Origin: Betaproteobacteria bacterium
GTDB lineage: Bacteria; Pseudomonadota; Gammaproteobacteria; Burkholderiales; Thiobacillaceae
Direction of reading: 5' to 3'
Length of the DNA stretch: 64,000 bases
NCBI GenBank assembly: GCA_016219425.1
Contig: JACRNB010000004.1
Location: 1-64,000 of the forward strand
This document shows positions 1,362 to 62,315 of the stretch, piece after piece. Position 1 is the first letter of the stretch. Each line of letters begins with the position of its first letter. The notes beneath the pieces were generated by a model, which was given only the letters and a program-made list of their open reading frames with translations, ran no database searches and was not told the DNA's origin. The position numbers were made by a program, and so were the translations under genes.

Positions 1362-1524
1362 GGCGCAGCCTCTTTTTTGGTGTGGTAAATCGGAATGTGT
1401 GAAGGTGAGATAACAGGGGGGCGATGACGCCGTGAGCATTTTCAGGCTCGGTGCGTGTGGTCATCCATGTCGTTGTGAGCCCCTGGCGGCAAAGTGTGGG
1501 TTTATCGAACGGGGGTCTGCACGC

Positions 1525-2910
1525 TCAGTAGATCCAGGTCAGCATCGCCGTGCCCTGGTGGCGGGAATAGTCATACAGCCCCACGTTGGAATCGTTGCGC
1601 GTGTAGGTGTAGCCCAGGGCGGCGGTGAGGCCGGTCTTGCCGATGGGCTTGGAGAGGTTGGCAGTGATGGCGTACTGCCAGTCGCGCCGGGCGTGTTCAC
1701 AACCGTTGCAGGCGCCGGCGAGGAAGGGGTCGGGGATGGCGTACACGGTGCGGGTGACGCCGGGTTGCAGGTAGAGGCTGAACCCTTCCGGCAGGGGAGT
1801 GCTGACCCCCAGGCTGAGACCCTGGCTCTGGTTGTTGAATTGCCGCTCGTAGGCGTGTTCCCGCCCGAAGCGCAGGGTGGGCTGCAACTGTAGGGATTCC
1901 CCCGCCTTGATCCGCGCCCCCGCGGTCACGCCGCTGACTTGCCCGTTGCGGGTGAGGCTGGCAACCCGATGGTATTTGCGGCGCGAGTTGGAGAACCCGC
2001 CCGTGAACTGCACATCCGTGGAGTAGCTGTACTGAAGCTGGGGCGCGATCCCCTTGGAGTGGCTGTAGGGGTCATGGCCGACCACGATGTTGTCGTAGAC
2101 CAGCGGGACGGACAGTACGAACTTGTCCACCGCCACCGTGGGGCCGGTGGAAGCGGAGAGGATGAGCAGGTCGCTGGCCTGCTCCTGGATGTAGTCCAGG
2201 CTGTTGACGCTGACTTCGGACTGCCAGGCGAACTGGTTGTTCACGGTATGCACATGGTTGACGCTCACCACCGCATTCCAGGCGTTGTCGGAACGGTTGG
2301 TGATGGTCTCGGAGGTGGGAGCCACGGTGAGGATGGAGGCGGAACCGGGGCCGGTGTTGACGTTGGAGTCCGACATCATCGCCACCGACAGACGCAGGTG
2401 CAGGGGACGCTGGGCGTCCATCATGCTGAAGAACTTCTGGATGTTGTCGCCCACCTGGGGCGGCGGGTTGCTGGCGATGACCTGATTGAACTGCTCCCGC
2501 GCCAGATCGAAACGCCGTTCCGCCACATAGGCGCGGCCCAGGTCCAGGCGCACCCTGGGCAGGTTGGGGTTGGCCGCCAGCATGGCCTCGAACAGGGCGA
2601 TGGCCTCGGCGGGGCGGTTCAGTTCCATGGCGCAATGGCCGAGCAGAAAGCGCACATCCTGGTCGGCGGGGGAGTCCACCAGGGCCAGCTTGAGGATCTC
2701 GTAGGCCTCGGTGAACTTGCCTGCATTCATGAGGAACACGGCGCGTTTGCGGGCGGTGAGGGAGGTGGGTGTGGCAGGGCGAGCGGATGCGCCAACCGTG
2801 GCCAAAGGAACCTGTTGAGCGGCAACGGGAAATGCCTGCATGCAGGCAAAAAAGAAAAACAGGGGGGAAACGTACTTCACTCGCCCTGGCAGGATGCGCC
2901 CGTAACTCAC
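1525..2910 (-). CDS. TPR plus outer-membrane beta-barrel protein, Slam/DUF560-like (type XI secretion)
   Basis: The 461-residue protein starts with a signal peptide (FFFFACMQAFPVAAQ). TPR-like helices follow at about residues 50-165 (KRAVFLMNAGKFTEAYEI; RVRLDLGRAYVAERRFDLA; then NPPPQVGDNIQKFF). From DSNVNTG (about 181) to the end there are alternating strands typical of an outer-membrane barrel, and the last residue is aromatic (TWIY). TPR, the NPPP..V..NI hinge and the DSNVN entry into the barrel are the layout of the Slam (surface lipoprotein assembly modifier, DUF560) family, which moves surface proteins with TbpB-like barrels across the outer membrane. The gene just upstream encodes such a protein, 45 bases away. 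The frame opens with GTG at 2910; an internal GTG at 2880 gives a neater signal peptide (VKYVSPLFFFF) and has AGGGCGA just before it, so the true start may be 2880. Family assignment is from motif recall, not a search. Confidence 0.72.
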   Translation of the reverse strand: MSYGRILPGRVKYVSPLFFFFACMQAFPVAAQQVPLATVGASARPATPTSLTARKRAVFLMNAGKFTEAYEILKLALVDSPADQDVRFLLGHCAMELNRPAEAIALFEAMLAANPNLPRVRLDLGRAYVAERRFDLAREQFNQVIASNPPPQVGDNIQKFFSMMDAQRPLHLRLSVAMMSDSNVNTGPGSASILTVAPTSETITNRSDNAWNAVVSVNHVHTVNNQFAWQSEVSVNSLDYIQEQASDLLILSASTGPTVAVDKFVLSVPLVYDNIVVGHDPYSHSKGIAPQLQYSYSTDVQFTGGFSNSRRKYHRVASLTRNGQVSGVTAGARIKAGESLQLQPTLRFGREHAYERQFNNQSQGLSLGVSTPLPEGFSLYLQPGVTRTVYAIPDPFLAGACNGCEHARRDWQYAITANLSKPIGKTGLTAALGYTYTRNDSNVGLYDYSRHQGTAMLTWIY

Positions 2911-2955
2911 TGATTATGTGTGCTGATGTAAACGAGGGGGATTAAATCACGGCGG

Positions 2956-5900
2956 CTAGCGCTTTCCTACAAAAATGCCGACGCCCTTATCCGATCCCTT
3001 GTCGATGTACCAGTTGCCGCCGGCTTCTTGAGCCTGGGGGCCGAAGAACGCGCCATTCACCTTGCCGCCACCTCCCGTGACGGTAGTGGCGAGGCCCGTA
3101 AAGGGCAAGCCGGGGGAACCGGTATTGATTGAATGGGCGCCTGTATAGCTCGCCGAGGCCCAGGATGACCCGCTGCTGTTGTTCAAGGCAAGGTTCAGAC
3201 TGGTGATTTGCTGAGTGCCAAAATTGACGCCCATGTTGAACGTTCCCTGAACAAAGCCCGCTCCCGTGGCCTGCCCCATGGCAAGACCGCTATATGTGAC
3301 GGAGCCAAGTGGTTGGATGTTGGTGGAATAGTTGGCATTGGGTGTTGGGTTGCCTGCTACCCACATGGAGGCAGGGCTTACTGTGCGGTTGCGATCGCTT
3401 GTGGTCTGGTCATAGTCATGCCCCCAAAATCCCCAGGTTGTGTAGCTGTAATTGGTGTCTGCAGAACTGTTGACTTGCTTGATGGCCTCGGGAGCCGCCG
3501 CAATAAAGGTGGGGGTGTCGTTGGTCAATCCGCTGTCTTTTACGATGGCAAAGGCATGGGCATTGACATAAGCGGTATCTGTCCCGGTATTCAAATTGAT
3601 GGTGGGGGTATTGCTCCCTGTGCCGGTGCCATCGGCTTTTTTGTCGGTGGTAATGGTTCCCGTGGGCGTTCCCGTGAGTGTGTTTCCAGTGGTCCCTGGG
3701 AGATTGATTTGAACGTCGTCGAGACTCTGGTTCACAAACAGATCGGCGCTGCCCGAGGTGGTGCGGGTTGCGACGACGGCGGTGGCAAAACCCTTCCAGG
3801 TTTCCGCCCCGGTTGGAGTAGGCCCTGTGACCGAATTGGAGGAGCGCATCCCGGTAATTGCTGCGCTGGCTCCAGTGGCCGGGGCGTCATTGACTGTGTT
3901 GTCCTGCCAGTTCATGCCGAATACGCCACCGATGCCTGACGGCATGCCCGAGTTGGAGCCATACATGACCAATTTTGTTTTACTGGTGTCGCTCAGATAT
4001 CGGGGTGTGGAAACGTCGTTGTATAGGTTGTCTGTTTTTACGATGTAATCACCATTGATCTCGAAATTGTTGCCCAAGCTGCCTACAAAAATGCCCATGC
4101 CGCCGTTGCCAATACCCGGGAGAATGTCGTAGCCGTAGACCTGATTGGTCGCCCAGTTGACATACATGCGGCCAGGGAAATTGCCGCTGCTGCCTGTTTT
4201 CGTGCTGCGATAACTCTGACCGTCGTAGAGAGTGGATTGGTGGAAATCAAAACTGGTGACGCCTGTTGTTGGTTTTGTGGTGCTGCGAATTCCGTAATAG
4301 CCCTCCACCACGGCATTATTGACGGCGTTAGTCAGGAAGTAGCGGTAGAAATCCTTTTCCTGGGTGTACTGGATATAGGAGCCAGTGGTTTTGAAATCGA
4401 TACTGGCATAGCTGGTGGTGTTGTAATTGATCTGGAAGGAGCTGTCGGAACCATTTAAATCCCATTGCCTGTAGTTCTTGCCAGAAACCAAGCCTACGTT
4501 TGTGGTGTCGCCTGTGGTGAATGAACCAAGGGCCTGAGGCACCAGAAATGAAGCCTTGAGACGTTGGGCATTGGCGCTGTCTGTGTAGTTCTCTACCATG
4601 ACCGAGAGCGGATTGTCGGTGGAGTAAACGCCGGAGGTGTTCATGTCCGACAGCACCCCTGCGCCCCAATCCAGCCCGGTACGGTCCTTGCCGGAAAATA
4701 TGCCGAAAACCTGCTCAGTGCCGGTCATGGTCATGCCCCAGCGCCCCCCGGTTTCCTGGGCGGAGGAGCCGTAGAACTTGCCAACCACTTCGGCAGTGGT
4801 GTAGCCGCTACCACTCGGGCCAGTCAGACCAGTGAAGCTGTAGGCGTTGGACAAAACCCATGAGTTGTTGACAAATTCGAACCCGGAGGCTGACAGGTTG
4901 TTGGTTGCCTTTTCCGGGGTCAGGTTGCTGATTCGGCCAGTTATCTTGCCAGGTCCGCCTGTTCCGAAATCCACCTTGAGGTCAAACAGCCCGGAGATGT
5001 AATCGACGCCTCCGGTGCCTGTAATGATCAGACCGGTGGCAAAGCCCGAGTACGACACGGAACCCAGGGCGTTGGTGATGTTAGGGCTGCTGGTGACCGC
5101 TCCCGCCACCCAGTTGGACATGGGCATGACGGTCTTGCTGCTGGTGTCTCCAGACCAGGAGCCGACATAGTGGTACGCCAGCTTTCCCATGTATTTGTTC
5201 AGCACCGAGGAATGCATGGTTTCCCAGTCCGTGTAGGTGCTGCGGGTGGAGTAATAGAAGAGATTGGCGCCCCCATCCGTGACTTTGGAAGCGCCGAAGG
5301 CACTGGTGGCGAGGAAGGCGTTGGGGTCCGTATCCGTGTTGGCGAAGGAATCGCCAATGCCATTCGTGAAGGAACCGGTCACCTTGCCCGTGGAGGGGGT
5401 GAGGGTGATGGAGGTTGTGCCATTGCTGGTACTGAGCGTGCCGGTGCTGCGGTTCTTGATCAGATTGCTGCTGAAGCCTTCCCAAAGGGTGTTGTCACCG
5501 GGGGTGACCTGGCTTTGGTAGATCGAAGCGCCGTTGGTATGCCCGGCCAGCACGCCCTGGCCTGTGGTACTGACGGCGCCGCTGGCATTGTGTCCTTCCA
5601 CGTTGAAGGAGCCGCCGAGGACGTTGGCGCTGGAACCAAAGAGCTCAAGGCTCATGCCGGAGGTGGTGACCCAATTCCAGTTGCTGGTGGTGCTTCCGGT
5701 ATTGCCCTGTTTTTCCCAGGCCTGGGCGTTGATGGACGTGTTGCTGCGGTCCAGGCTGCCCAGGGTGAGCGGGATGGAGTCGCCGTTCGGATTGATGCGC
5801 GTAGGCATGAATACCTTGTTGGTGGCGAAATCCACGGTGAGTTGGCTGCTGTTGGTGAACGGTTTGTTGTCGTTTGTATTCGTGTTGCTGTCGGTGGCCA

Positions 5901-7641
5901 GGATGTCGATGAAGTAGGTTCTCTGGCCGCTGCTGAGTAGCTGGCTGGTGCTGGTGCGGTTGCCGCCGTAGGCGATCAGGTTGACGTCGCTGGAGGTGGC
6001 GGCGGCCTTGTTGGTGTACGTCAGGTGGAACGCGTCCGTGCCCTGAGCGTAGGCGCTGCCGTCTGCGGAGCCGCTGACGTCGGACCAGATGGACTGGTTG
6101 TAGTAGTAGTACTCGGTGCTGCTTCCGGTTTTTGCGCGGTATTCCAGTTGGCCGGGGGCATAGCCATCCCGTTTCAGCCGGAAGATCAGATCCGCCACGC
6201 TGAGGCTGCCGTTGCGGTTGTCGGTGGCGTAACTGTTGGTTCCGCTTTTGAAGTTGCTGCCGAAGGTGCCGTTCCAGTTGTAGGGGGCGCTGAACGCGTT
6301 GGCATCCGTAGTGGTCGTGGTGACTGTGGTGGTGTTAGTGGTGGCTTGGGTGCGCAGGATGTCCTGGTTGGAGGTGTTGTTGGCCGTAGTGATCAGCGTG
6401 GCAGGGGGCGGGAGCGCGCCCGGTTCCGTTGCGCCGAAGAAATTGTTTGGCGGGGGCGGGGGGGGGGCTGCGGCGCCGGTGGCTGGCGCGTTGCTCATGG
6501 AGTCGGCAAAAACAATGGGGTCGAGCAGTGAATTGCTCAGCCCTGAAGGTTGGTCGGGCGCTGAAGCGCCCTCACTCCGTGCGGGAGCCGAGAGTTCCCG
6601 TCCCCGAGGCCGGGTGTCCGGGAGGTCTCCGGTGGCGGCATCGGTCCCGGTATCGGCGGGTTTTCCTACTCCCGTTGGAGCGTTCTCTGTCCTTTCGTTG
6701 ATGTTGGGGGCGGCAGTTTGAGGCTTGCGCTCTTTGGGGCCGGGCGGGGCGTCTACATCCCCAGCAGCGCCGCTGGGCTTGGTTTCAGGTGATTTTGCTG
6801 CCGCGTTGTCGCCCGTCTTTCCCTCTGCGGGTTTGTTGCCTGCCGCCGGCTCGTTGGGCTTGGGGGCGCCGCCTTGCTCTGCGCCGGATTTTCCGGGGTC
6901 ATTGGCTGGCGGAGGCGGCTCCAGCTTGCTGGTCTCACCCTGGTCGCTCATGCCCAGGGCATTGAGCTGTTTTTTGAGGCTGCCAGCTTCCTTGTCTTCC
7001 TGTCTCTTTTCGGGGGCGTCGCCCGAGGCCAGCGATGCGAGTTTTTTCTTGGTCTGATCGCCGCCGCCCTGCTGACCGCCGATGCTCTGGTCCTTTTTAT
7101 CCTGGGCGCCCACCAGGGTTTCCGAGGACTTGCGGGCGTCTTCCTTGACCTCTTTCTTCATTTCCTGGACGGCTTGTTTGCCGCCGCCGGGGGCGATGTC
7201 CACTGGCGGCATCATGCGTTCCATGCCCTTGGCCAGCTTGAAATCCGGATCGAGTTTTCCGGCTTCCTTGAACAGGGTGGCGGCCTGGGCAAACTGACCC
7301 TGGTCGGCCTTGTCGAGGCCCTTGGCAAAGGCGAGGAAGGCCTGGGGATTGGTGGTCTGGGGCTTTTCCAGTTCCGTGCGGATCTTGGGAGGCAATTCAT
7401 CCACCTTGACGCCAAGATGCTGGAGGGCGGCGAAGACCATGTCTTTCTGAAGCTTGTGGAAACTCCCCATGGGGCTTTGGCGCGACTGGTTGCCCAGGGC
7501 GTTGCCGGAGACGGCATCCATGGTGATGCTGTTGACGGAAAGGGTCTGCGCCCCCGCATCCGCGGACAGCCATGCAGCCAGAGCGAAGGCGAGCGGGCGC
7601 AGAGGGGGGAGATGGAAGGGGGCGTTTTGCTCAGTTGCCAT
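2956..7641 (-). CDS. Large secreted protein with TbpB-like barrel motifs, probable Slam cargo
   Basis: The 1561-residue protein has a signal-like N-terminus (PLAFALAAWLSADAGAQ, residues 16-32) with no lipobox cysteine. Residues 32-146 resemble the C-terminal half of CsgG-like/TPR proteins (LGVKV..LPP, QTTNPQAFLAFAKGLD, KEAGKLDPDF). Residues about 150-390 are a charged, then Pro/Ala-rich, low-complexity linker. The rest is beta-rich with two related modules: WVAG...LGSVSYSGFATG...DLKVDFGTG (from about 837) ending GKFYGSSAQETGGRWG (about 951), and WVAG...LGSVTYSGLAMG...NMGVNFGTQ (from about 1423) ending GAFFGPQAQEAGGNW (about 1530) and VGIFVGKR at the C-terminus. The G.F(Y/F)G..AQE.GG motif is the mark of TbpB/FHbp-type barrels, the usual cargo of Slam proteins. 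The ATG overlaps the end of the upstream gene by 11 bases, with AGGACG before it. Cargo status is inference. Confidence 0.75.
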   Translation of the reverse strand: MATEQNAPFHLPPLRPLAFALAAWLSADAGAQTLSVNSITMDAVSGNALGNQSRQSPMGSFHKLQKDMVFAALQHLGVKVDELPPKIRTELEKPQTTNPQAFLAFAKGLDKADQGQFAQAATLFKEAGKLDPDFKLAKGMERMMPPVDIAPGGGKQAVQEMKKEVKEDARKSSETLVGAQDKKDQSIGGQQGGGDQTKKKLASLASGDAPEKRQEDKEAGSLKKQLNALGMSDQGETSKLEPPPPANDPGKSGAEQGGAPKPNEPAAGNKPAEGKTGDNAAAKSPETKPSGAAGDVDAPPGPKERKPQTAAPNINERTENAPTGVGKPADTGTDAATGDLPDTRPRGRELSAPARSEGASAPDQPSGLSNSLLDPIVFADSMSNAPATGAAAPPPPPPNNFFGATEPGALPPPATLITTANNTSNQDILRTQATTNTTTVTTTTTDANAFSAPYNWNGTFGSNFKSGTNSYATDNRNGSLSVADLIFRLKRDGYAPGQLEYRAKTGSSTEYYYYNQSIWSDVSGSADGSAYAQGTDAFHLTYTNKAAATSSDVNLIAYGGNRTSTSQLLSSGQRTYFIDILATDSNTNTNDNKPFTNSSQLTVDFATNKVFMPTRINPNGDSIPLTLGSLDRSNTSINAQAWEKQGNTGSTTSNWNWVTTSGMSLELFGSSANVLGGSFNVEGHNASGAVSTTGQGVLAGHTNGASIYQSQVTPGDNTLWEGFSSNLIKNRSTGTLSTSNGTTSITLTPSTGKVTGSFTNGIGDSFANTDTDPNAFLATSAFGASKVTDGGANLFYYSTRSTYTDWETMHSSVLNKYMGKLAYHYVGSWSGDTSSKTVMPMSNWVAGAVTSSPNITNALGSVSYSGFATGLIITGTGGVDYISGLFDLKVDFGTGGPGKITGRISNLTPEKATNNLSASGFEFVNNSWVLSNAYSFTGLTGPSGSGYTTAEVVGKFYGSSAQETGGRWGMTMTGTEQVFGIFSGKDRTGLDWGAGVLSDMNTSGVYSTDNPLSVMVENYTDSANAQRLKASFLVPQALGSFTTGDTTNVGLVSGKNYRQWDLNGSDSSFQINYNTTSYASIDFKTTGSYIQYTQEKDFYRYFLTNAVNNAVVEGYYGIRSTTKPTTGVTSFDFHQSTLYDGQSYRSTKTGSSGNFPGRMYVNWATNQVYGYDILPGIGNGGMGIFVGSLGNNFEINGDYIVKTDNLYNDVSTPRYLSDTSKTKLVMYGSNSGMPSGIGGVFGMNWQDNTVNDAPATGASAAITGMRSSNSVTGPTPTGAETWKGFATAVVATRTTSGSADLFVNQSLDDVQINLPGTTGNTLTGTPTGTITTDKKADGTGTGSNTPTINLNTGTDTAYVNAHAFAIVKDSGLTNDTPTFIAAAPEAIKQVNSSADTNYSYTTWGFWGHDYDQTTSDRNRTVSPASMWVAGNPTPNANYSTNIQPLGSVTYSGLAMGQATGAGFVQGTFNMGVNFGTQQITSLNLALNNSSGSSWASASYTGAHSINTGSPGLPFTGLATTVTGGGGKVNGAFFGPQAQEAGGNWYIDKGSDKGVGIFVGKR

Positions 7642-8959
7642 CGTCCTGCACCTTGTAATCGCCGATCAGCAATTTCTCCGCCCGCAACATGCGCCCGGCG
7701 CGCACGGAGCTTTGCGCGTCCACCAGTCCGCTTTGGGACAGGGCGATCTCATCCGCCAGCATTTGTAGTTTGGAGCGTTCCAGCACGCGCAGGTTGGGCA
7801 CCTTGCTGAGGTCTGAAATCATCATGGCGGCCAGCCCTTTGGAGAGGATGGCCTGGTTGGCGTCGCCCCGGTTGGCGAAAGGCAGAACGGCTACGGTGCC
7901 GGGCTCGGGTGCGGCCTGGCTGAGGGTGGATTCCAGCTTGAGCGCCTTTTCCACTTCGGCGCGCATTTCCTGATTGATCAGCAGGGTGAGGCGCTCCGGT
8001 ACGCCCTTGGTCGCCGCGCCATTGGGGTCGGTCTTGATGAATTGCTGCCACTGGCGAATGGTTTCGAAGTGTTCGCCGCGCTCCAGGGCAATGGCGCCCA
8101 GGTAGTAGGCCGTCTGGGCATTGCCGGGGAAGGCGGTCTGAATCTGGAGCAGGCGGTTGCGGGCCTGCTCTACCTGGCCTTTGTCAAAGGCCACCACGGC
8201 CTCGCGCAGGGCTTCCCCCTCCGGGCTGGTGAGGAAGGTCAGGTCTACCTCGATCTCCGGGCTGAACCGGTCGATGCGGGCGCCTTCTTCATAGAGGCGC
8301 AGCATGTTGCCGGCAGAGAGGGAGACCGCTTCGCCGACCTTGCCCTTCCAGGCGGCGTCCACGCTCCAGTCCTGGCTGGCGCTGTTGAGGCGGAACTGGG
8401 CCTCTTTTTCCTTGGCGTCCCAGGCGCGCCAGTTGTTGAAGGCGTAGACGGTGAGGCCGGGGCGGTCGCCGGGGACAATCACGCCCAATTTGCCTTCGCC
8501 CGCTGCCAGGACGCCGAAGGGGGTTTCCAGGCGACCCTGCCCTTGGGCGTTAGGTGCGGCATAGAGGGTGACGGCGCCCTCCCAAATCTGCACCAACCAG
8601 TTGGCATCCGCCTGCTCCGAGACAGCCAGGGTGGAGCCTTCGCCGATGTGGAGCGCATCTCCGTTGGGCAGTTTCAGGCGCAGGCGCGCGTCTGCGGGGG
8701 TATGGATGACATCATCCAGGCCAAAGGTCTGGTTCTCGCGTACCGGGAAGGCTGTCCGTCCGCGCACGAGCAGCGGCGTTCCCACCATCAACTGGGTCTT
8801 GGCCAGCACCTTGCCGGGTTCCTCAGCGAGGGGGGCGGCGCTGATTTCCTTCGGGATGAACGGCTTCTCCCCCATGTCCGACCACGCCGGGGCGATGAGG
8901 CACAGCGACAACATCCCTGCGAGCAAATGGCGCGTAACGCTGTAAAAATGAGATAACAC
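7631..8959 (-). CDS. FecR-domain, TPR and truncated CsgG-like envelope protein
   Basis: Numbered from a GTG at 8971, the frame has 446 codons; GTG at 8959 (residue 5) is preferred because GGAG lies six bases before it. A signal peptide ends near APAWSD (about residue 31). A FecR-like region covers about 55-160 (VGTPLLVRGR...FGLDDVIHTPADARLRLKLPNG, then GRLETPFGVLAAGEGKLGVIV), a TPR-like stretch 255-320, and a CsgG/TolB-N-like region from VAVLPFANRGD (360) through NLRVLERSKLQ to GDYKVQDDGN, where it stops. Relatives continue past this point with a strand and a D(V/L)ETG segment; here that continuation appears at the start of the next gene. The 16153-16836 protein shows the uninterrupted version (VFGDFTLFGGVLRVDVRV). 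The gene is first in the leftward set, divergent from the FHA-cyclase gene. Confidence 0.75.
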   Translation of the reverse strand: MLSHFYSVTRHLLAGMLSLCLIAPAWSDMGEKPFIPKEISAAPLAEEPGKVLAKTQLMVGTPLLVRGRTAFPVRENQTFGLDDVIHTPADARLRLKLPNGDALHIGEGSTLAVSEQADANWLVQIWEGAVTLYAAPNAQGQGRLETPFGVLAAGEGKLGVIVPGDRPGLTVYAFNNWRAWDAKEKEAQFRLNSASQDWSVDAAWKGKVGEAVSLSAGNMLRLYEEGARIDRFSPEIEVDLTFLTSPEGEALREAVVAFDKGQVEQARNRLLQIQTAFPGNAQTAYYLGAIALERGEHFETIRQWQQFIKTDPNGAATKGVPERLTLLINQEMRAEVEKALKLESTLSQAAPEPGTVAVLPFANRGDANQAILSKGLAAMMISDLSKVPNLRVLERSKLQMLADEIALSQSGLVDAQSSVRAGRMLRAEKLLIGDYKVQDDGN

Positions 8960-9115
8960 GGGGCGCTCCACACGGGTTCAGACTGATGCGCTCGGACAGA
9001 CCAACGCCAGATTCGGCTTCCTTTCCAGCGTGGCTAAAATTTACCATGCGCCGCAAGCGCTCCGATGTGACGAGTAGCACTGGAAATACGAAGTATTCAT
9101 CTGGATGGAGAAGGC

Positions 9116-10009
9116 ATGAGTGATGCGTCGATCAGTTGGCAGGCGTGGGTCGAAAACCGCCAGGGGGAGAAGACTCCGGTGCGTGGTTCGTGCAGCCTGG
9201 GGCGCGCTCCGGCCAATCACATCGTCATTCCGGATACGCGCGTGTCCCGACGTCACGCCACGATCCAGCTTCAGGGTGAAGGGGAATACTGGCTGGTGGA
9301 TTTCGGCAGCAGCAACGGCACCTATCTGAATGGCGCTCGCATCACCCAGCCCACCCGCCTGCATTCCGATGACGTCCTGCAAATGGGGGGCGCCGATGAG
9401 TTCGTGTTTCGCCAGGCGTCCGTGACCGCCGAGGCGGCGCCGGCGGCGAATTTTTCCGACCGGACCATCTTCGATGTGCGTCAGGTGCAGTGCTGGCTGC
9501 TGGTGGCGGACATCATCAATTCCACCCATCTGGTCAATGAACTGGCGCCGGACGAGCTTCCTCTGGTGACCGGCGGTTGGCTGCGCGAGTGCCGCGAGAT
9601 CATCGAAGCCACTGGTGGCCGCATCAATCAGTTCATGGGCGACGGATTTTTTGCTTACTGGCGTGACGGTCCCGCCATGGACACGGAGATCCTGCGTTCC
9701 ATCCAGGCCCTGCATGGTCTTCAATCCCAAGCCAAGCCGGCCTTCCGCTTTGTTCTGCATCTCGCCCCCGTGGTGTTCGGCGGCGTTGCCATCGGTGAGG
9801 AAGAGCGCATCTCCGGCAGCGAAGTGCATTACGTTTTTCGCATGGAAAAGCTGGCGGGAAAGCTCAAGGTTCCGGACCTGATCAGCGCGCCGGTGTGGGA
9901 TCGGCTCTCCGGCGCGGTCCAGGCGCGGGATATGGGACGTCATCCCTTGCAGGGGTTTACCGAGGACTTTTCCTTCTTCAGTCTGACCGCCGGTCCCGCC
10001 GGGGTGTGA
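9116..10009 (+). CDS. FHA domain fused to class III adenylyl/guanylyl cyclase-like domain
   Basis: The 297-residue protein has an N-terminal FHA domain (about residues 20-95) with the full phosphothreonine-binding signature: LGR at 28-30, VSRRHA at 43-48 and SSNGTYLNG at 65-73. A cyclase homology domain follows (about 124-290). Metal-binding aspartates are present as D132 (VADIINST) and D176 (FMGDGFF). The position that usually holds the purine-recognising lysine is Q172, and the usual VN.A.R motif reads VHYVFR, with H238 for Asn and R242 kept, so activity or substrate is uncertain. DRTIF at 115-119 in the linker is a possible kinase target. GGAGAAGG precedes the ATG. It opens the rightward operon ahead of the phosphatase and kinase, and probably reads kinase output. 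No transmembrane segment is seen. Confidence 0.85.
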   Translation: MSDASISWQAWVENRQGEKTPVRGSCSLGRAPANHIVIPDTRVSRRHATIQLQGEGEYWLVDFGSSNGTYLNGARITQPTRLHSDDVLQMGGADEFVFRQASVTAEAAPAANFSDRTIFDVRQVQCWLLVADIINSTHLVNELAPDELPLVTGGWLRECREIIEATGGRINQFMGDGFFAYWRDGPAMDTEILRSIQALHGLQSQAKPAFRFVLHLAPVVFGGVAIGEEERISGSEVHYVFRMEKLAGKLKVPDLISAPVWDRLSGAVQARDMGRHPLQGFTEDFSFFSLTAGPAGV

Positions 10010-10076
10010 TCTACATCCTAATGGGCCGGGTTTCGCCTCATTCACCATCACGACATGTCGGTAGGGGGACATCTCC

Positions 10077-10871
10077 ATGGAAGTAGTCAGTCAAACGCAT
10101 CAGGGCATGATTCGCGATCACAACGAGGACAGTTTTCTGGTCGATGAATCTCTCGGTTTGTACATTGTGGCGGATGGCATGGGCGGACATCGCGCGGGCG
10201 ATGTGGCCAGCCGTATCGCCGTGGACGCCGTGCGCAAGCGCCTGCAGAACGCCCTCGCCGGCAGTCCTCTCAGCGATGCCGATCTGGCCCTTGAAGTCAG
10301 CAGCGCGGTCGAGTTCGCCAACCAGGAGATTCGCTCTGCCGCCCTGCGAACCCCGGACCAAAAGGGCATGGGTACGACCATCGTCCTGATTCTGGTGCGG
10401 GGGGGGAAAGCGGTCCTGGCCCATGTGGGCGATTCCCGCGCCTACCGTTGGCGCGGGGCCGACTTTGCCAAGCTCACCCAGGACCATTCCCTGTTGCAGG
10501 AACAAGTGGGGGCCGGCGTCCTGACCAACCGCGAGGCGAAGTTCTCGCATAACCGCAATCTGGTGACCCGCGCCCTGGGCGTGGAACCTCGGGTCGAGGT
10601 GGAGGTGCAGCCCATCGACATCCGGCAGGGGGACACCTTCCTGCTTTGTTCAGATGGCCTCAACACCATGGTGGATGACATCGACATCCACCACACCATG
10701 CGCGAGGTCGGCGCCAACCTGCCCTTGGCTGGGCGCTGCCTGGTGGAGATTGCCAACGACAACGGCGGACACGACAACGTCACCCTGCTCCTGTTGCGGG
10801 TGAACGAGGTCAAGCCCCCTGAGGAAGAGGCGGGTTTCGGTCGCCGCCTGATGCGCATGTTCGGTCTGTGA
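10077..10871 (+). CDS. PP2C-type Ser/Thr protein phosphatase (Stp/PppA-like)
   Basis: The 264-residue cytoplasmic protein has all main PP2C metal and phosphate motifs: T..G..R..NED at the N-terminus (HQGMIRDHNED), VADGMGGH around residue 31, GMGTT, AHVGDSRAYRW, TQDHS, LLCSDGL and HDNVT near the C-terminus. It would remove phosphate from Ser/Thr residues placed by the kinase encoded four genes on (12743), and is the same length and layout as Stp/PrpC phosphatases. It lies 67 bases after the FHA-cyclase gene and 12 bases before the double-FHA gene, so the three are probably cotranscribed. Confidence 0.93.
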   Translation: MEVVSQTHQGMIRDHNEDSFLVDESLGLYIVADGMGGHRAGDVASRIAVDAVRKRLQNALAGSPLSDADLALEVSSAVEFANQEIRSAALRTPDQKGMGTTIVLILVRGGKAVLAHVGDSRAYRWRGADFAKLTQDHSLLQEQVGAGVLTNREAKFSHNRNLVTRALGVEPRVEVEVQPIDIRQGDTFLLCSDGLNTMVDDIDIHHTMREVGANLPLAGRCLVEIANDNGGHDNVTLLLLRVNEVKPPEEEAGFGRRLMRMFGL

Positions 10872-10883
10872 GGGAGAGGCGAA

Positions 10884-11576
10884 ATGGCCAAACTGGTAGT
10901 GAACAACGGAGAAACCCTGGTGGCGCAGCTGCATCTGGATGCGCCGCGTGTGGTGATCGGTCGCGGCGAGCAGTGCCAGATCCGCCTTGCCAGCGCGTCG
11001 GTGAGCAAGGAGCACGCAGCGGTGCTCTCCATCGGCAATGACCACATCCTGGAAGACCTCAAGAGCACCAACGGCACCAAGGTCAACGGCGCGTCGGTCT
11101 CCCGCCATGTCCTGCAGAATGAAGAAATCATTGAGATCGGCGAGTTCCGCATTCGCTACATGAACCACCGCGCGCTGAAGGACATGGATTTCGACCGCAC
11201 CATGATCTTCTCCGGCGATCCCAACCTGGGCGTCGCCTTCAGCGAGGATGCGGCGGCGGCGGCGGCCAACACCGATCAGGTGTCCACTGCGCGGGCGGTG
11301 CGGGTGTCTTTCCCCCTGGGCGGCGTGCGCGGCCTCAAGGGCGCTCATGCCGGCAAGGAGATCTCGCTGGAGCCGGTGCTGCGTCGGTTCGGCCAGCCGG
11401 GCCGGGCGACTGTGGCCATCATGCGGCGTCCCCAGGGCTATGTCCTGATGAATGTGGAGGGCAACGGCGCGGTGCTGAACAGCCGGAATGTCGGTGCGGA
11501 ATGGCCGATGTTGCAGCACAAGGATCTGATCGAAATCGCCGGCGAGCAGTACACGTTCTTCCTCGTGGGGAAGTAA
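10884..11576 (+). CDS. Double FHA-domain protein
   Basis: The 230-residue protein carries a canonical FHA domain at about residues 5-93 (VVIGRGEQCQIRL, VSKEHA, LEDLKSTNGTKVNG). A second, worn FHA-like fold covers about 138-228 (KEISLEPVLRRFGQ...VAIMRRPQGYVLMNVEGNGAVLNSRNV...LIEIAGEQYTFFL), in which the GR, S..H and NGT residues are not kept, so it probably does not bind phosphothreonine. DRTMIF at 104-109 follows the first domain and resembles DRTIF in the FHA-cyclase protein, a candidate phosphorylation site. An Ala run (AAAAAA) links the domains. GGGAGAGGCGAA precedes the ATG. It is likely an adaptor bringing phosphorylated partners together. Confidence 0.88.
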   Translation: MAKLVVNNGETLVAQLHLDAPRVVIGRGEQCQIRLASASVSKEHAAVLSIGNDHILEDLKSTNGTKVNGASVSRHVLQNEEIIEIGEFRIRYMNHRALKDMDFDRTMIFSGDPNLGVAFSEDAAAAAANTDQVSTARAVRVSFPLGGVRGLKGAHAGKEISLEPVLRRFGQPGRATVAIMRRPQGYVLMNVEGNGAVLNSRNVGAEWPMLQHKDLIEIAGEQYTFFLVGK

Positions 11577-11597
11577 ACGGTGACGCAGGGGGCGCCC

Positions 11598-12773
11598 ATG
11601 CCTGAGGCGGTCGGAAAAGGGGCGCCGGCCTTCTTCGGTCCCGCCCTGGCAGCCCTCGTCGGCAGTCTGGTCCTGATGGGAGGTGCGCGGGCGTCATCCG
11701 GCATTACCCAGAACTACGAACCCGTAAGCGCCCAGGTGGTGTGTATCGAGACCGCCAATACGGATCGCAGCCGCGCCGTAGGCACTGGCTTCTTTGTGCG
11801 TCCCGGAGTGATCGCCAGCGTGCGGCATCTGGTGACCGGGGCCCGGCGGATCAAGGTCCACCTGCCGGATGGCGGCGTGCAGGAGGCAAAGGTCATGGCG
11901 CAGGAGAAGGCTACGGATCTGGCCTTGCTGCGGGTGCCTTTCAACAAACTTTCCGGTCTTCCGGTCAGTCGCGCCGTGGCTCGCATGGGCGACGAGATCT
12001 TCACCGTGGGCTGCCCGCTGGGTCTGTCGCGCACCCTGGCGCGGGGCATGATCAGCCAGCCGCAGCGAGTGATCGACGGCAAGCGCCTGCTCCAGACCGA
12101 TCTCTCCACCAGCCAGGGCAACAGCGGCGGCCCGCTGGTCAACCGCGAGGGCGAGGTGGTGGGCATCGTGCATGGGCAGATGCGCGAGGCGAGTGAGATC
12201 AATTTCGCCATCCTTGCCGCCGACCTCAACGAGCTTATGGCGGCCAACGGTCTGGCGGTCGCCGCCCTCACGCCCGAGCAGGAGGCCAGACTGTCGTCCC
12301 TGTGGGGTGAGGCGCGCAACGCGGGCAGCCATGACGCCCGCATTGCCGGTTATCAGCGTGTGCTCATGCTCGCGCCGGAGATGGCGGAGGCCTACTACAA
12401 CATGGGTTTGGCCTATCTGGCCAAAGGGGACTACGAACGCGCCAGCGAGATCTTCGAAACCGCCAGCCTGAAGCGACAGGATTACGTCGAGGCCCTCAAC
12501 AACCAGGGGTTGGCCCTGCTGCTGCTGGGGCGTCACAAGCAGGCGCGGGATGTGTTGGTGCGAGCGTTATCGATCCAGGCCGACTATGCTCTGGCCTATC
12601 TGAATCTTGGCGTGGTGTATGCGCAGGGCTTGAAGGATCATGAGTCAGCAGACAAGAATTTCAGACGTTATCTGCAACTAGAACCCAATTCCGCTCAAGC
12701 CCCGGCGCTGCGGCGCTGGCTCGAAGCCAGGTCCAATACACCATGTCCGATAGCACTGATCTGCAACAACTAG
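11598..12773 (+). CDS. HtrA-like trypsin-fold serine protease with C-terminal TPRs, exported
   Basis: From the ATG at 11598 (AGGGGG eight bases upstream; a GTG at 11580 in frame lacks a good site) the product is 391 residues. A signal peptide or anchor is at 11-33 (AFFGPALAALVGSLVLMGGARA). The protease domain follows with the catalytic triad visible as H77 (VRHLV), D107 (ATDLAL) and S176 (QGNSGGPL). There is no PDZ domain. Instead about three TPRs occupy residues 240-380 (AYYNMGLAYLAKGDYERASEIF; ALNNQGLALLLLGRHKQARDVL; AYLNLGVVYAQGLKD). It probably acts in the periplasm on envelope substrates. Its last 31 bases overlap the start of the kinase gene in another frame, which suggests tight translational coupling. 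Confidence 0.88.
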   Translation: MPEAVGKGAPAFFGPALAALVGSLVLMGGARASSGITQNYEPVSAQVVCIETANTDRSRAVGTGFFVRPGVIASVRHLVTGARRIKVHLPDGGVQEAKVMAQEKATDLALLRVPFNKLSGLPVSRAVARMGDEIFTVGCPLGLSRTLARGMISQPQRVIDGKRLLQTDLSTSQGNSGGPLVNREGEVVGIVHGQMREASEINFAILAADLNELMAANGLAVAALTPEQEARLSSLWGEARNAGSHDARIAGYQRVLMLAPEMAEAYYNMGLAYLAKGDYERASEIFETASLKRQDYVEALNNQGLALLLLGRHKQARDVLVRALSIQADYALAYLNLGVVYAQGLKDHESADKNFRRYLQLEPNSAQAPALRRWLEARSNTPCPIALICNN

Positions 12774-14146
12774 GCAAATACAGCATCCTGGGCGAACTCG
12801 GGCGGGGCGCAATGGGCGTCGTCTACCGCGGGCTCGACCCCTTCATCAAGCGCGAGCTGGCCATCAAGGTTCTGCGCGCCGACCTGCTGGACAAGAACGA
12901 GCGCGGCCCCATCCTTGATCGCTTCCGCCAGGAGGCCCAAGCCGCAGGGCGGCTCAACCACCCCCACATCGTAGCCATCTACGAATACGGCGAGGACGGC
13001 GACCAGGTCTTCATCGCCATGGAACTTCTGCGTGGGCGCGAGCTGAAAGAGTATGTGCAGGATGGCGAGTATTTCGATCCCGCCGATGCGATCCGCATCG
13101 TCCTGCAATTGCTGGACGCCCTGGGCTACGCCCACGCCAACGGCGTGGTGCACCGGGACATCAAGCCGGCCAACATCCTGGTGCAGCCGGACAACAACAT
13201 CAAGGTCACGGACTTCGGCATTGCCCGGCTGGAGTCCTCCAGCCTGACCCAGGCGGGAACCATGCTTGGCACCCCCAGCTACATGTCTCCCGAGCAGTTC
13301 ATGGGGCAGCGGGTGGATGGGCGTTCCGACCTGTTCTCTGTCGGCGTCATGCTCTACGAGCTGCTCACTGGAGAGAAACCTTTTGCCGGCAATTCCTTCG
13401 CCACCATCATGCACAAGGTGCTGAAGGAGCCGATCACACCGCCTTCCAATCTGAATCTGCTGGTTACCCCGGAACTGGATGCCGTGATTCTCAAGGCCCT
13501 GTCCAAGCGCCCGGATGATCGTTTCCAGGACGCCAAGGCCTTCGCCGAGGCCCTGACCCTGGCGAAGGCGGGCCGCCCCATGCCAGCGCCTGCTCCGGCG
13601 AGCGACCTGGACGCCACGGTGGTGCAAGGCGCCGCCCCGGCCCGCCCGGCCCGCGGCCAGGCGCCCCAGGCCGTGGAGGAGGCCACCGTGGTCGTGGCGC
13701 CTGCCGGCGCTGCAAACGATTCCACCCAGGTGATCTCCCCCACGGCCAAGACCCAGGTGGTAACACCCGCTGCGTCGGCCACCCCGGCGTCCGCCGCTGC
13801 CGGTCGCAAGCCCCTGCTCCTGGGCGGAGCCATCCTGCTGGCGCTGGCCCTGGGCGGCGGCGTTGTGATGCTGGGGAAAGGAGGCGAATCCTCCGCCCCC
13901 GTCGCTGTGGAGGCCAAGCCTGCGGCGGACGCCGGCTGGATATTGATCAACTCCACCCCTCCCGGCGCGGTGGTGCTGGTGGATGGCGGGCGTTACGGCG
14001 GGGTCGCCCCGGTGCGTCTGGAAGTCCCCGCCGGGGCGCACCAGATCGTGCTGCGCAAGGATGGGTTCCACGAGATCGAAGCCAGCGTGGAAGTGCCCCG
14101 CGGCGCCCTCATTCCTTTCGATGCGGAACTGGTCTCCAGCCAGTGA
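12743..14146 (+). CDS. Membrane Ser/Thr protein kinase with C-terminal PEGA domain
   Basis: The 467-residue protein has a complete PknB/Hanks kinase domain at about residues 13-272: glycine loop GELGRGAMG (17-25), K42 (AIKVL), HRDIKPAN with D139, DFG at 157-159, a Thr/Ser-rich activation loop (SSSLTQAGTMLGTPSYMSPE) and RSDLFSVGVMLYELL. A low-complexity linker (280-355) contains repeated acidic-x-Thr-Val type motifs (DATVV, EATVV, STQV, KTQV), possible autophosphorylation and FHA docking sites. A membrane segment (LLLGGAILLALALGGGVVML, about 358-377) follows, then an extracytoplasmic PEGA domain (WILINSTPPGAVVLVDG...LEVPAGAHQIVLRKDGF). The PEGA domain faces the periplasm, where the FecR, CsgG and protease products of this cluster are found, and may sense envelope state. 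The start lies inside the protease gene. Confidence 0.93.
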   Translation: MSDSTDLQQLGKYSILGELGRGAMGVVYRGLDPFIKRELAIKVLRADLLDKNERGPILDRFRQEAQAAGRLNHPHIVAIYEYGEDGDQVFIAMELLRGRELKEYVQDGEYFDPADAIRIVLQLLDALGYAHANGVVHRDIKPANILVQPDNNIKVTDFGIARLESSSLTQAGTMLGTPSYMSPEQFMGQRVDGRSDLFSVGVMLYELLTGEKPFAGNSFATIMHKVLKEPITPPSNLNLLVTPELDAVILKALSKRPDDRFQDAKAFAEALTLAKAGRPMPAPAPASDLDATVVQGAAPARPARGQAPQAVEEATVVVAPAGAANDSTQVISPTAKTQVVTPAASATPASAAAGRKPLLLGGAILLALALGGGVVMLGKGGESSAPVAVEAKPAADAGWILINSTPPGAVVLVDGGRYGGVAPVRLEVPAGAHQIVLRKDGFHEIEASVEVPRGALIPFDAELVSSQ

Positions 14147-14225
14147 CGCATCGCATAGCGATACACCACAAGTTCAACGATTCTGGGCCGCGTACCCAGC
14201 CCTTTTTGAAATGCAGGAGGCAATG

Positions 14226-16151
14226 ATGGCGACACGTTTCAAGGTTCTGTTCCTTTCCATGCTGCTGGCCGCGGCCCAGGCCGACGCCGCCCCGCGCAAG
14301 GGCGACAAAGTCACCCCGTTTGCCCTGGATTCCACCTCCGGCGTCAAGGTCACGGAGAAGACCCTGCAAGGGGCAGACCTGGGCGTGATGTACTTCTTCT
14401 CCACCGAAAAATGCGCGGTCTGCCTGGATGGCCTGGAGCGGCTGCGCCAGGTGGCCAGCCAGTATGGCGATGACCGCATCAGCCTGGTGGCCGTGGGCAA
14501 GCAGGATCTGGGTACGCTGAAGAAACTGCCTGTCGCCGAGCGCCCCCTCGTGCTGCTGGCCGGCAACACGCAGACCCTGGCCAACTACAACGCCCAATAT
14601 GTGCTTCCCGTCACCTACGTCACCGGCCCCGGCGGCGAGGTGCTGGGCGTCTTGCAGGGGGGCGGCGCATCCACCGAGGCGATGCTGATCTCCCTGGCCG
14701 AGAAGCAGATCCAGCGCAAGAAGACCAAGTCAGCCAAGGGCATCTTCGAGATGGCCGACAAGGCCGGCGGCGGCTCCCTGGCCAAGGCCGGCATCGGCCA
14801 CAGCCTGCTCAAGGAAGGCCGTCTGGATGAGGCCGAGGGCGTATTCCGCGCCCTCACCAAAGACAAGGACAAGCAGACCGCCGTGCGCGGGCTGGAAGGG
14901 CTGGCGGAGGTCTACCTGGCCAAGGGACAGACGGACCAGGCCATCAAGTACGCCAACGACGCGTTGGCCATGATTCCGGGACGCAGCACCGCCAACCTGA
15001 TTCTGGCTCGCGCCCAGCACAAGAAGGGGCAGGGCAAGGAAGCCGAGCAGTCCATCGCCCGCGCCACCCAGGATGGCGCCCAGAGCGACTTCTCCTTCCA
15101 GCGTTCCGACGCCCACCTGATCAAGGGCAACCTGCTGCGCAACAAGGAGCCCAGCATCGCGCTGACCTCGTTCAAGATTGCCGCCCGGGAAAACCCCCAC
15201 TCCGTCGAGGCCCTGAGCAACCAGGGCGCGCTGCTGCAAGCCGCGGGCGACCCGAAGCAGGCGCTGGAAGTGCTGAAGAAGGCGGGCGGGCTGGACCCCA
15301 CCGACAAGCTGCTGCACGGCCTTGTGCGTCAGGCCGAGGCGGCCATCGGCCAGAGCAAGGATCTGGAGCGTCAGCGCTACATCGACCAGACCGTGAAGGA
15401 CTTGGCTGCCCGCTTCCGCGAGAACCAGGCCAAGACCCCCGCCAACGCTGACGACTGGACCAGCCCGCCCATGGTGGTGAGCATCCTCAACCTTCAGGAA
15501 GAAGCGGGCGACCCGCTCACCGCGCGCCTGGGCGTGGCGGGCGTACTGCACCACGACCTCCAGATCGCCCTCGCAGGCAAGGGCGTCCAGGTGGTCGAAC
15601 GCGCCGTGATCGACAAGTTGCTGGCCGAACTCAACCTGGGTTCCTCCGCCCTGGCGGACCCGGACACCCAGCTCAAACTGGGCCGCGTCATGGCCGCCCG
15701 CCTCATGGCCACCGGCGGCGTACATCCCAATGCCGGCAACCAATCCCTCGCCACCCTGCGTCTGGTGGACGTGGAGACCACCGGCATCGCCATGTCCGCC
15801 AGTGAGCGCATGAGCGCCAACCCGGATCTGGCCCAAACCGCCGAGAGCCTGGCTGCCGCCATCGCCAAGACCATTCGTGACAAGTACCCGCTGAAAGGCC
15901 GTCTGGCCCTGGTGGAAGGCGAAACGGTGATCCTCAACCTGGGCAAGAAGCACGGCGTGGCCATGGGCCAGGAATTCAGCGTGCTGGGCAAGCCCGAACC
16001 CATCGAACTGAACGGCAAGGTGCTGGGCCAGCGTGAGACCAAGCTGGGCAGCCTGCGCGTCACCAAGGTGGAAGACGGCCTCGCCTACGGTGCGGTGGTT
16101 GCCCGCACTGCCGCCTGGGACAAGAACCAGCGCATCGTGCAAAAGGATTGA
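14226..16151 (+). CDS. Secreted thioredoxin-like/TPR/CsgG-like fusion protein
   Basis: AGGAGG at 14215-14220 supports the ATG at 14226 (an adjacent ATG at 14223 is too close), giving 641 residues. A signal peptide ends near DAAP (residue 22). Residues about 25-160 resemble a thioredoxin-fold AhpC/TlpA domain with a C63-A-V-C66 pair in FFSTEKCAVC. Six or so TPR-like helices pairs cover about 165-390. A CsgG-like segment (GVQVVERAVIDKLLAELNLGSSAL..LKLGRVMAARLMATGGVH..LATLRLVDVETTG) covers about 450-545, and the C-terminus (GRLALVEGETVILNLGKKHGVAMGQEFSVL) is like FlgT-C or a small beta domain. The combination of a redox motif with CsgG is unusual. It lies 79 bases after the kinase gene and one base before the next CsgG-like gene. 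Role unknown; probably periplasmic assembly or envelope sensing. Confidence 0.75.
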   Translation: MATRFKVLFLSMLLAAAQADAAPRKGDKVTPFALDSTSGVKVTEKTLQGADLGVMYFFSTEKCAVCLDGLERLRQVASQYGDDRISLVAVGKQDLGTLKKLPVAERPLVLLAGNTQTLANYNAQYVLPVTYVTGPGGEVLGVLQGGGASTEAMLISLAEKQIQRKKTKSAKGIFEMADKAGGGSLAKAGIGHSLLKEGRLDEAEGVFRALTKDKDKQTAVRGLEGLAEVYLAKGQTDQAIKYANDALAMIPGRSTANLILARAQHKKGQGKEAEQSIARATQDGAQSDFSFQRSDAHLIKGNLLRNKEPSIALTSFKIAARENPHSVEALSNQGALLQAAGDPKQALEVLKKAGGLDPTDKLLHGLVRQAEAAIGQSKDLERQRYIDQTVKDLAARFRENQAKTPANADDWTSPPMVVSILNLQEEAGDPLTARLGVAGVLHHDLQIALAGKGVQVVERAVIDKLLAELNLGSSALADPDTQLKLGRVMAARLMATGGVHPNAGNQSLATLRLVDVETTGIAMSASERMSANPDLAQTAESLAAAIAKTIRDKYPLKGRLALVEGETVILNLGKKHGVAMGQEFSVLGKPEPIELNGKVLGQRETKLGSLRVTKVEDGLAYGAVVARTAAWDKNQRIVQKD

Positions 16152-16152
16152 G

Positions 16153-16836: not shown

Positions 16837-16846
16837 GCACACCGCC

Positions 16847-17257
16847 ATGAATACCCTGTGCGCGCGCCTCTCCTGCTCTTTCAAGGGTGAGATCCACGAC
16901 CTCCATACGGTCATTGATCTGGATTCCCTCCCCCTGGATGCCGAAGAGCCGCCCGATTTTCATCGCCTCCTGGCGCAGGCGGCAGCCATCGACCCCTACT
17001 CCTATCTATATGAGGTGGTGGAATCTCACGACATCGAGTTCTCCGCGGCCACGGGGGTGGCGGCGCAGTGCTGCGAGTTGGGGCAGTTCGACTGGCGGCG
17101 TTATGTGCGACTTCAGCGGGAGGAGGGCGAGCTGGTCGCTCTGCGGGCCATCGCAGCCCGGACCCTGGGCGTTTCCGACCTGGATCAGCACCCGGATCTG
17201 AAAGCGGCCATGCTGGCGGCGTACCGGGCGGGCAAGGGAGAGCAGACTGACGGGTGA
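16847..17257 (+). CDS. Conserved-looking hypothetical protein, last gene of the FHA-kinase operon
   Basis: I do not recognise this 136-residue protein. It starts at ATG 16847, ten bases after the preceding stop, and has no signal peptide or membrane segment. The N-terminus (CARLSCSFKGEIHDLHTVIDLD) looks like two beta strands, and the rest is mostly helical and acidic (PDFHRLLAQAAAIDPYSYLYEVVE, then FDWRRYVRLQREEGELVALRAIAAR). A conserved-looking CC pair is at AAQCCELG. Its position suggests a cytoplasmic accessory to the kinase system, but it could be unrelated. Confidence 0.6.
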   Translation: MNTLCARLSCSFKGEIHDLHTVIDLDSLPLDAEEPPDFHRLLAQAAAIDPYSYLYEVVESHDIEFSAATGVAAQCCELGQFDWRRYVRLQREEGELVALRAIAARTLGVSDLDQHPDLKAAMLAAYRAGKGEQTDG

Positions 17258-17280
17258 TCTGCCCCCCCGTTGGGGCCAGG

Positions 17281-17307: not shown

Positions 17308-17332
17308 CTTGAAAGGCGCGGCAACGCCGGTG

Positions 17333-18367: not shown

Positions 18368-18389
18368 GGCGGATGACGCGAAGAACGCG

Positions 18390-62300: not shown

Positions 62301-62315
62301 ACGATAGCGGGCCGG

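Follow-up and report, generated by a model that had tools for sequence, protein, structure and literature searches.

What joins a protein export unit to a kinase pathway when the two stand back to back on a chromosome? The question is raised by a divergent gene cluster at one end of a contig from a Betaproteobacteria bacterium of the Thiobacillaceae (assembly GCA_016219425.1, contig JACRNB010000004.1). The DNA analysed, hereafter the window, comprises 64,000 nucleotides (positions 1 to 64,000, forward strand), and is the start of contig C1 of a genome of 3.1 Mb in 16 contigs. Its left arm encodes a Slam-like outer-membrane protein, a putative cargo and a FecR-TPR protein; its right arm encodes a Ser/Thr kinase, a PP2C phosphatase, FHA proteins and two CsgG-like proteins (csgG1 and csgG2). 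We find that a CsgG-like domain is divided between the overlapping fecR and cargo genes of the left arm, and that csgG1 and csgG2 bridge the two arms across genomes. A first-pass annotation of this DNA, made from the letters alone, had delimited the genes; the open reading frames (ORFs) agree with its genes and coordinates and Pfam backs most of its labels. Two features were absent from it, namely the divided domain and the start of a giant repeat protein. The left arm is composed as follows (window coordinates; HMM, hidden Markov model).

1..1439, minus strand: giant repeat protein, 5' part; 55-aa repeats, then a cadherin-like domain; the contig end cuts the gene
1525..2910, minus strand: slam; TPR and SlipAM (DUF560) outer-membrane barrel, Slam/T11SS type
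2956..7641, minus strand: cargo; signal-like start, CsgG C-half and TPR, Ala/Pro/Gly-rich linker, TbpB-like barrels
7204..7548, minus strand: N-terminal module of the cargo; CsgG C-half and TPR, residues 32-146 (alignment and HMM)
7631..8971, minus strand: fecR; signal-like start, FecR, TPR, N-half of a CsgG-like domain
7634..7900, minus strand: CsgG-like N-half at the end of fecR; CsgG profile positions 10-96 of 210, HMM end 251
8972..9115, no strand: intergenic region between the divergent arms (from the sequence)

A CsgG-like domain divided between fecR and cargo

The fecR product matches the CsgG family of Pfam at 1.5e-7, over the same first part of the profile as its unsplit relatives do, and the continuation lies in the cargo; its FecR match (9e-5, 23.3 bits) falls just under the cut-off of 24. 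Because unsplit proteins, too, match only the first half of the Pfam profile, a partial match alone is no evidence of a split, and a dedicated HMM of 381 positions was therefore built from 18 unsplit TPR-CsgG-TPR proteins and searched with the fecR/cargo pairs. Its seeds were one paralogue each from the window genome (G000) and two genomes of the same genus (G003 and G027), residues 1-375 of a fused protein from locus L071 described below, and 14 proteins, two of them incomplete, from distant loci of a scan with fecR. The fecR proteins of all eight assemblies start at HMM positions 47-70 and end at 250/251, and all eight cargos start at 243-259 and end at 361-369. In the window itself fecR spans positions 70-251, and cargo residues 33-153 span 255-361. 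Seven assemblies hold both genes (G027 with two cargos), and L063, where the contig ends, gives fecR alone.

The stop codon of fecR lies inside the cargo gene, with an overlap of 11 nt in the window, 4 nt in G003, L058, L059, L060 and, provided that translation begins at its GTG, G027, and 1 nt in L061; the start codon of fecR in the window is GTG 8971 or GTG 8959. Judged by eye, all eight cargos tested against the HMM open with a signal-like segment. The split between the genes is conserved and comes with an added signal for export; this architecture is well supported. A curli-type pore was considered for the left arm and rejected: each chain carries half of CsgG, the full 210-position domain in one chain is not found in fecR, and no curli genes occur among those scanned.

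The left arm as a predicted Slam/T11SS-type export unit

The SlipAM domain of slam is recognized by Pfam at 4.8e-19 (69.4 bits against a curated cut-off of 22) behind an N-terminal TPR region (TPR_19 4.3e-17; TPR_Slam 2.1e-7, under its cut-off), the combination expected of an outer-membrane protein of Slam or of the type XI secretion system (T11SS). The adjacent cargo, of 1561 aa, matches TbpB_B_D at 2.8e-6 (28.3 bits, cut-off 26) and FHBP_C at 1.3e-4, below cut-off; TbpB_B_D is also detected in both cargos of G027, and Pfam finds no barrel in those of G003 and L060. For the L058 cargo, a relative of the latter two, AlphaFold2 (AF2) predicts a C-terminal barrel of eight strands with a predicted local distance difference test score (pLDDT) of 84-94 except for one block at 61. 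The best 50 of its 67 Foldseek matches in the PDB (E<=0.001; best E 5.3e-7) are HphA, TbpB, LbpB, haemophores, fHbp and NHBA; TbpB, LbpB, fHbp, HphA/haemophore and NHBA are Slam or T11SS substrates. With the TbpB_B_D match in the window and these fold matches in L058, slam has a neighbouring cargo with a C-terminal TbpB-like barrel; by domain content and predicted fold the cargo is of the Slam/T11SS kind, and its export is predicted. In the same L058 model the lone CsgG half has a pLDDT below 50, as would be expected of half a domain.

The window cargo has a signal-like start (hydropathy and eye), and no lipobox was found, there being no Cys in its first 40 residues. Passages of PMC12282271 describe a soluble T11SS cargo. 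The linker between the CsgG half and the barrels is long and rich in Ala, Pro and Gly by composition. In G027 two cargos flank a single fecR, their N-terminal modules 100% identical over 480 nt (eight successive 60-nt windows) and their passengers 33-67% identical. By hydropathy, signal-like starts are present on slam, cargo and fecR in the left arm and on the protease-TPR protein, csgG1 and csgG2 in the right.

Immediately downstream of slam, an open frame at 3-1439, running leftward from 1439, contains a 165-bp repeat in 6.8 copies at 205-1325 (Tandem Repeats Finder) and a Cadherin_5 match (1.5e-12). A giant ORF precedes the slam-like gene in L060, with YDG repeats (Pfam on 998 residues), and similar ones do in G003 and L061 (sequence read by eye). 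Window positions 1-1439 and the start of contig C6 of the same genome (L125:3-527) are nearly the same sequence, the cadherin-like part of such a protein. Since two contigs start in nearly the same cadherin-like sequence, assembly probably breaks inside such repeat genes.

Fused forms and the neighbourhoods of FecR and SlipAM

The divided module occurs in one piece in L071, a locus of a metagenome-assembled genome (MAG) labelled Desulfonema limicola, in which a slam gene (SlipAM 6.5e-12) is followed by a single ORF of 691 aa comprising TPR, an unbroken CsgG domain (2.2e-9), TPR and a TbpB_B_D-like end (3.3e-4, below cut-off). The fusion matches a G027 cargo at 5.8e-8. Its AF2 model (18 sequences) has a mean pLDDT of 60.8, and the split point, transferred through the HMM, falls near residue 243, at a turn between strands 235-244 and 248-256 (pLDDT 58-85). 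The C-terminal domain of LpoB (4q6z) ranks ninth among the Foldseek matches of this model (E 4.5e-3, TMt 0.63), behind CadC and TPR proteins; with the CsgG-TPR profile, the best 60 of 344 matches among PDB sequences are TPR proteins. The slam and fusion genes adjoin a gene (L071:4162-6468) that, by eye, resembles a CHASE2 cyclase, and a weak cyclase match was seen in L116.

A second fusion comes from the window's own family (G065, locus L120), where FecR (1.9e-10) and a TbpB-like region (TbpB_B_D 3.4e-4, below cut-off) share one protein of 1152 aa; aligned with the window cargo over 523 columns, it shows 31% identity. In a sample of 399 genomes of the order, 92 of them bearing SlipAM, a FecR match lies less than 4 kb from a SlipAM match in at least nine genomes beyond that of the window (by eye); of these nine loci, Pfam confirmed FecR in the four checked (L118-L121, chosen ORFs), and the other five rest on matches to the fecR bait (A1). 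The L071 and L120 fusions and the proximity of FecR to SlipAM in at least nine genomes thus associate this export family with FecR modules and, less often, with CsgG modules.

The right arm

Rightward from position 9116 the window carries the following genes.

9116..10009, plus strand: fhaCyc, FHA and class III cyclase-like protein; FHA 1.2e-22
10077..10871, plus strand: PP2C phosphatase; PP2C_2 7.2e-20
10884..11576, plus strand: fha2, FHA protein with a possible degenerate second FHA-like half; FHA 7.1e-19
11580..12773, plus strand: trypsin-like protease with TPR, probably exported; Trypsin_2 8e-27, hydrophobic start
12743..14146, plus strand: Ser/Thr kinase with linker, one hydrophobic span and PEGA; Pkinase 3.3e-55, PEGA 8.9e-12
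14223..16151, plus strand: csgG1, AhpC/TSA, TPR, CsgG-like and FlgT_C (Pfam); relatives beside slam-fecR-cargo in L058-L061
16150..16836, plus strand: csgG2, CsgG-like and TPR in a single chain; CsgG 4.1e-12
16838..17257, plus strand: small protein; no Pfam family at E<=0.01

The FHA part of fhaCyc stands as first annotated, and the cyclase part has no Pfam call at E<=0.1; its match to solved class III cyclases, at about 6e-4, covers residues 124-207. Likewise, of the "double FHA" assigned to fha2, the first FHA is detected and the second half receives no Pfam call. Both FHA stretches also match Yop-YscD_cpl. The hydrophobic maximum of the kinase lies at residue 359 and its linker contains repeated DATVV-type motifs. 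On alignment, a D-x-T-hydrophobic motif is common to this linker, to fha2 behind its FHA domain (7/8 aligned sequences, degenerate in L097) and to fhaCyc of the window and G003, the window fhaCyc carrying the form DRTIF; the threonines of this motif may be phosphorylated. The CsgG match of csgG1 is at 7.7e-5. Relatives of csgG1 with an N-terminal caspase-like Peptidase_C14 domain, which the window copy does not have, were seen at L058:4850-7699 and L060:12453-14810.

No match to a sigma-70-like promoter was returned by a simple scan of positions 8960-9115, proposed in the first-pass annotation as a shared promoter region, or of all of 1-18500; since shuffles led one to expect 3.2 matches, the empty result is uninformative. 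Further along, the window contains a tRNA-Ser(GCT) gene at 19481-19573 and a glycine riboswitch at 62216-62305, both on the minus strand.

Linkage of the two arms across genomes

Of 23 genomes of the genus, 15 of which reach 90% completeness with no more than 5% contamination, three carry fecR (G000, G003 and G027; E<=4.7e-47), and the same three carry full-length csgG1 and an unsplit CsgG paralogue. The coincidence of two markers in the same 3/23 genomes has a hypergeometric probability of 1 in 1771, uncorrected for kinship. Among the matches listed for the 399 genomes of the order, both full-length markers occur in the same two, G000 and G003. These scans scored 3-4 candidates per genome, and weak cases may be missing. 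Full-length matches were counted, and those to FecR, TPR, CsgG or thioredoxin pieces (by coordinates) dropped; any match at E<=0.001, among the matches listed, was found for fecR (A1) in 147/399 and for csgG1 (A2) in 242/399 genomes, and for csgG1 in 17/23 of the genus.

When genomes were scanned with the left-arm fecR alone as bait, five betaproteobacterial MAG loci were recovered besides G003 and G027. Four of these reach past the cargo, and all four (L058-L061) have csgG1 within 21 nt of it; in L060 csgG1 lies on the cargo's strand, and in L058, L059 and L061 it converges with the cargo. csgG2 comes next in three loci, and L061 ends inside csgG1.

On the other side, the run of PP2C, FHA, protease-TPR, kinase-PEGA, csgG1 and csgG2 is found in G000, G003 and G027, with the FHA-cyclase gene in opposite direction in G003 and not found beside the run in G027. 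Behind csgG2 an FHA-EAL protein follows in G003 (L044:11532 onward; its EAL piece scores under the cut-off and is truncated where the locus ends) and an FHA protein in G027 (L018:7638 onward), where the window has an unrelated small gene. The linkage is thus a chain, from the left arm to csgG1/csgG2 and from these to the kinase, with csgG1/csgG2 as the bridge; the kinase part is seen with csgG1/csgG2 in only three genomes of the genus. Far from the genus, positions 683-11155 of a KSB1 MAG locus (L064) bring together FtsW/RodA, PP2C, a kinase with four PEGA domains and three TPR-CsgG-TPR proteins, a kinase/CsgG association that is a looser echo of the one described here. Kinase, PP2C and FHA genes also stand together on another contig in three of the five genomes behind the bait loci (G419, G420 and G423).

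That the two arms are neighbours by chance is improbable. The claim that they belong together probably holds, given csgG1 within 21 nt of the cargo in 4/4 loci and both arms in the same 3/23 genomes; the pattern that was to mark them as unrelated, either arm alone as often as both together, was looked for, and the outcome did not refute the claim.

A proposed mechanism and its alternatives

We propose that the left arm is a Slam/T11SS-type export unit with a two-chain cargo, that the CsgG-like domain reassembles in the periplasm as a dock or anchor, and that the kinase reads this assembly, a reading to which we give about an even chance of being right. The FecR-TPR protein would be periplasmic, with one half of a CsgG/LpoB-like domain, the first, at its C-terminus; the second half would open the cargo, followed there by a flexible linker and TbpB-like barrels exported by Slam. 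Since the fecR and cargo genes overlap, both halves are likely made together, and we infer that they re-form the domain in the periplasm. The joint could dock the cargo for export or, the barrels having left via Slam, keep its N-terminus in the periplasm and so stand in for a lipid anchor. We favour such a dock or anchor because of the L071 fusion, the N-module shared between cargos, and a cargo that has a long linker and no lipobox.

Linkage suggests that csgG1 and csgG2, too, are parts of this envelope assembly, which in the genus would be wired to the kinase, with its PEGA domain outside the membrane, to PP2C and to two FHA proteins, one of them cyclase-like. PP2C and the two FHA proteins are the likely partners of the kinase. 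Its most likely role is to sense the state of the periplasmic assembly and to pass a signal inward by way of the FHA proteins; we favour this inward direction with moderate confidence. The first-pass annotation had suggested phosphorylation control of surface-protein export or assembly, which is unlikely and fits poorly: the export-side proteins begin with signal-like segments, and the cytoplasmic kinase domain should therefore not reach slam, cargo, fecR, protease-TPR, csgG1 or csgG2. A more specific version, which seems to us rather unlikely as it stands, is that a Slam-exported protein would be held non-covalently by CsgG completion with FecR-TPR, with interchangeable passengers, and that the kinase would read occupancy of the joint through PEGA and its CsgG-TPR partners. 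If true, it would be a route of phospho-signalling from surface to cytoplasm built on domain complementation.

Several observations weigh against this proposal. No kinase, PP2C or FHA match was found by tblastn beside the left arm in L058-L060, and L059 has only a weak cyclase match near it. The arms lie on different contigs in G027 and about 20 kb apart on one contig in G003. With cargos 73-80% identical, L058, L059 and L061 are too closely related to count as three independent cases, and the co-occurrence counts ignore kinship. As to structure, AF2 was applied to single chains, with mean pLDDT about 60, and binding of the halves is conjectural; the low pLDDT of the lone half could stem from a shallow alignment of five sequences; and the barrel matches of L058 were judged by Foldseek E-value, with root-mean-square deviations of 5-16 A over the aligned columns. 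The L071 fusion comes from one MAG, its own being the only one of 18 distant genomes searched with it to carry such a fusion; in the model its barrel part is unfolded (pLDDT mostly under 50 at residues 411-691), and the periplasmic domain of CadC (4.6e-4), rather than LpoB or CsgG, is its top match in fold. Where a catalytic Asn would be expected in the cyclase domain, fhaCyc of the window and of G003 has His, and the domain is weakly supported. The direction of signalling, finally, is one that we infer.

The failure to find kinase, PP2C and FHA at L058-L060 and the separation of the arms in G003 and G027 are in line with two neighbouring systems, an export unit and an independent kinase/PP2C/FHA operon whose csgG-type proteins would be common by ancestry only, as are PP2C-FHA pairs without the rest in G025 and on contig C13 of G027. 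Of the right arm, L058-L060 have csgG1/csgG2 alone beside the left arm, apart from the weak cyclase match in L059. Two separate systems nevertheless appear doubtful, given that relatives of csgG1 are linked to the left arm in four MAGs and to the kinase in three genomes of the genus, and that both arms occur in the same three of 23 genomes.

The CsgG joint could instead be a transient chaperone dock, at which FecR-TPR would capture the cargo, keep it export-ready, hand it to the TPR of slam and be released. Slam export of TbpB uses the holdase Skp, according to passages of PMC9090332; TPR domains are present on slam, fecR and cargo, and the single fecR of G027 stands beside two cargos sharing one N-module. 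We consider such a dock unlikely: the module is covalent in the cargo-like protein of L071 and cannot be a separable chaperone there, and the cargo's own half would need to be exported too.

The type VI secretion system (T6SS) uses a PpkA/PppA/Fha trio, and the trio here might regulate a T6SS encoded elsewhere in the genome. The earlier statement that no T6SS structural gene is present holds for the scanned genes of both arms, none of which matched a T6SS family in Pfam; yet contig C6 of the same genome carries a VipB/TssC gene (G000:C6:7360-9234, L125; E 2.7e-117) beside an Hcp gene (1.3e-18). These two genes stand, by eye, between phosphofructokinase-like and MutS-like genes. We regard a role of the trio in T6SS regulation as very unlikely, since no T6SS family turned up among the scanned genes of the cluster, neither FHA protein matched a T6SS-specific Pfam family, and the neighbours of the kinase are csgG1, csgG2 and the protease in 3/3 genomes. 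A frameshift or other annotation or assembly artefact in one FecR-CsgG-TPR-barrel gene, to which the mere 11-nt overlap of the reading frames in the window might point, is refuted by the same cut and signal-like second gene start in the seven assemblies holding both genes.

ORF maps of the fetched loci came from a simple caller with a filter on GC content at third codon positions (GC3), which mis-called some genes (e.g., VipB on C6), and the claims made here rest on tblastn, HMM and Pfam; signal-like segments were judged by hydropathy and eye.

Comparison with known systems

To our knowledge, it is an open question what keeps a non-lipidated Slam/T11SS cargo at the surface or lets it go, and how export and cargo are fitted to each other. 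A domain cut between a cargo and the product of an overlapping gene would offer a concrete mechanism of docking or anchoring as well as a modular tag, as suggested by G027, where two cargos whose tags are identical and whose passengers differ adjoin a single fecR; the locus also connects a Slam-type export family with kinase/FHA signalling. In the main text of PMC12282271 and PMC8406197 the words FecR, CsgG, kinase and FHA do not occur. In the open-access papers searched (supplements and most subscription papers lying outside them), we found no paper that joins FecR with DUF560, none that joins CsgG, TbpB and TPR, and none that joins the PEGA domain, kinase and FHA.

The left arm resembles Slam/T11SS systems with TbpB, fHbp or HphA cargo in its TPR and SlipAM barrel and in a neighbouring cargo with a C-terminal TbpB-like barrel; unlike the surface lipoproteins of those systems, the cargo is without a lipobox, carries a CsgG half-domain and is paired with a FecR-TPR protein. 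With CsgG and the periplasmic proteins LpoB and FlgO-FlgT the locus shares a CsgG-like alpha/beta domain, LpoB being among the fold matches of the L071 model, though below CadC, and FlgT_C being present in csgG1; it differs from the CsgG curli pore in that the left-arm fecR matches only the N-half of the profile and in the lack of curli genes among those scanned. FecR acts in ferric citrate signalling, and here, too, a FecR-type domain is encoded beside an outer-membrane protein gene, whereas it belongs to an exported protein that combines TPR with a CsgG half-domain, and no sigma factor family, and hence no adjacent extracytoplasmic function (ECF) sigma factor, was matched by Pfam among the scanned genes of both arms. 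GarA-type FHA switches belong to Hanks kinase/PP2C/FHA modules, which the right arm resembles in that a single run of genes encodes kinase, phosphatase and FHA proteins; the FHA domain at 9116-10009 matches GarA and its relatives. Unlike such modules, the kinase here carries PEGA, and its gene run includes a protease-TPR protein and two CsgG-TPR proteins.

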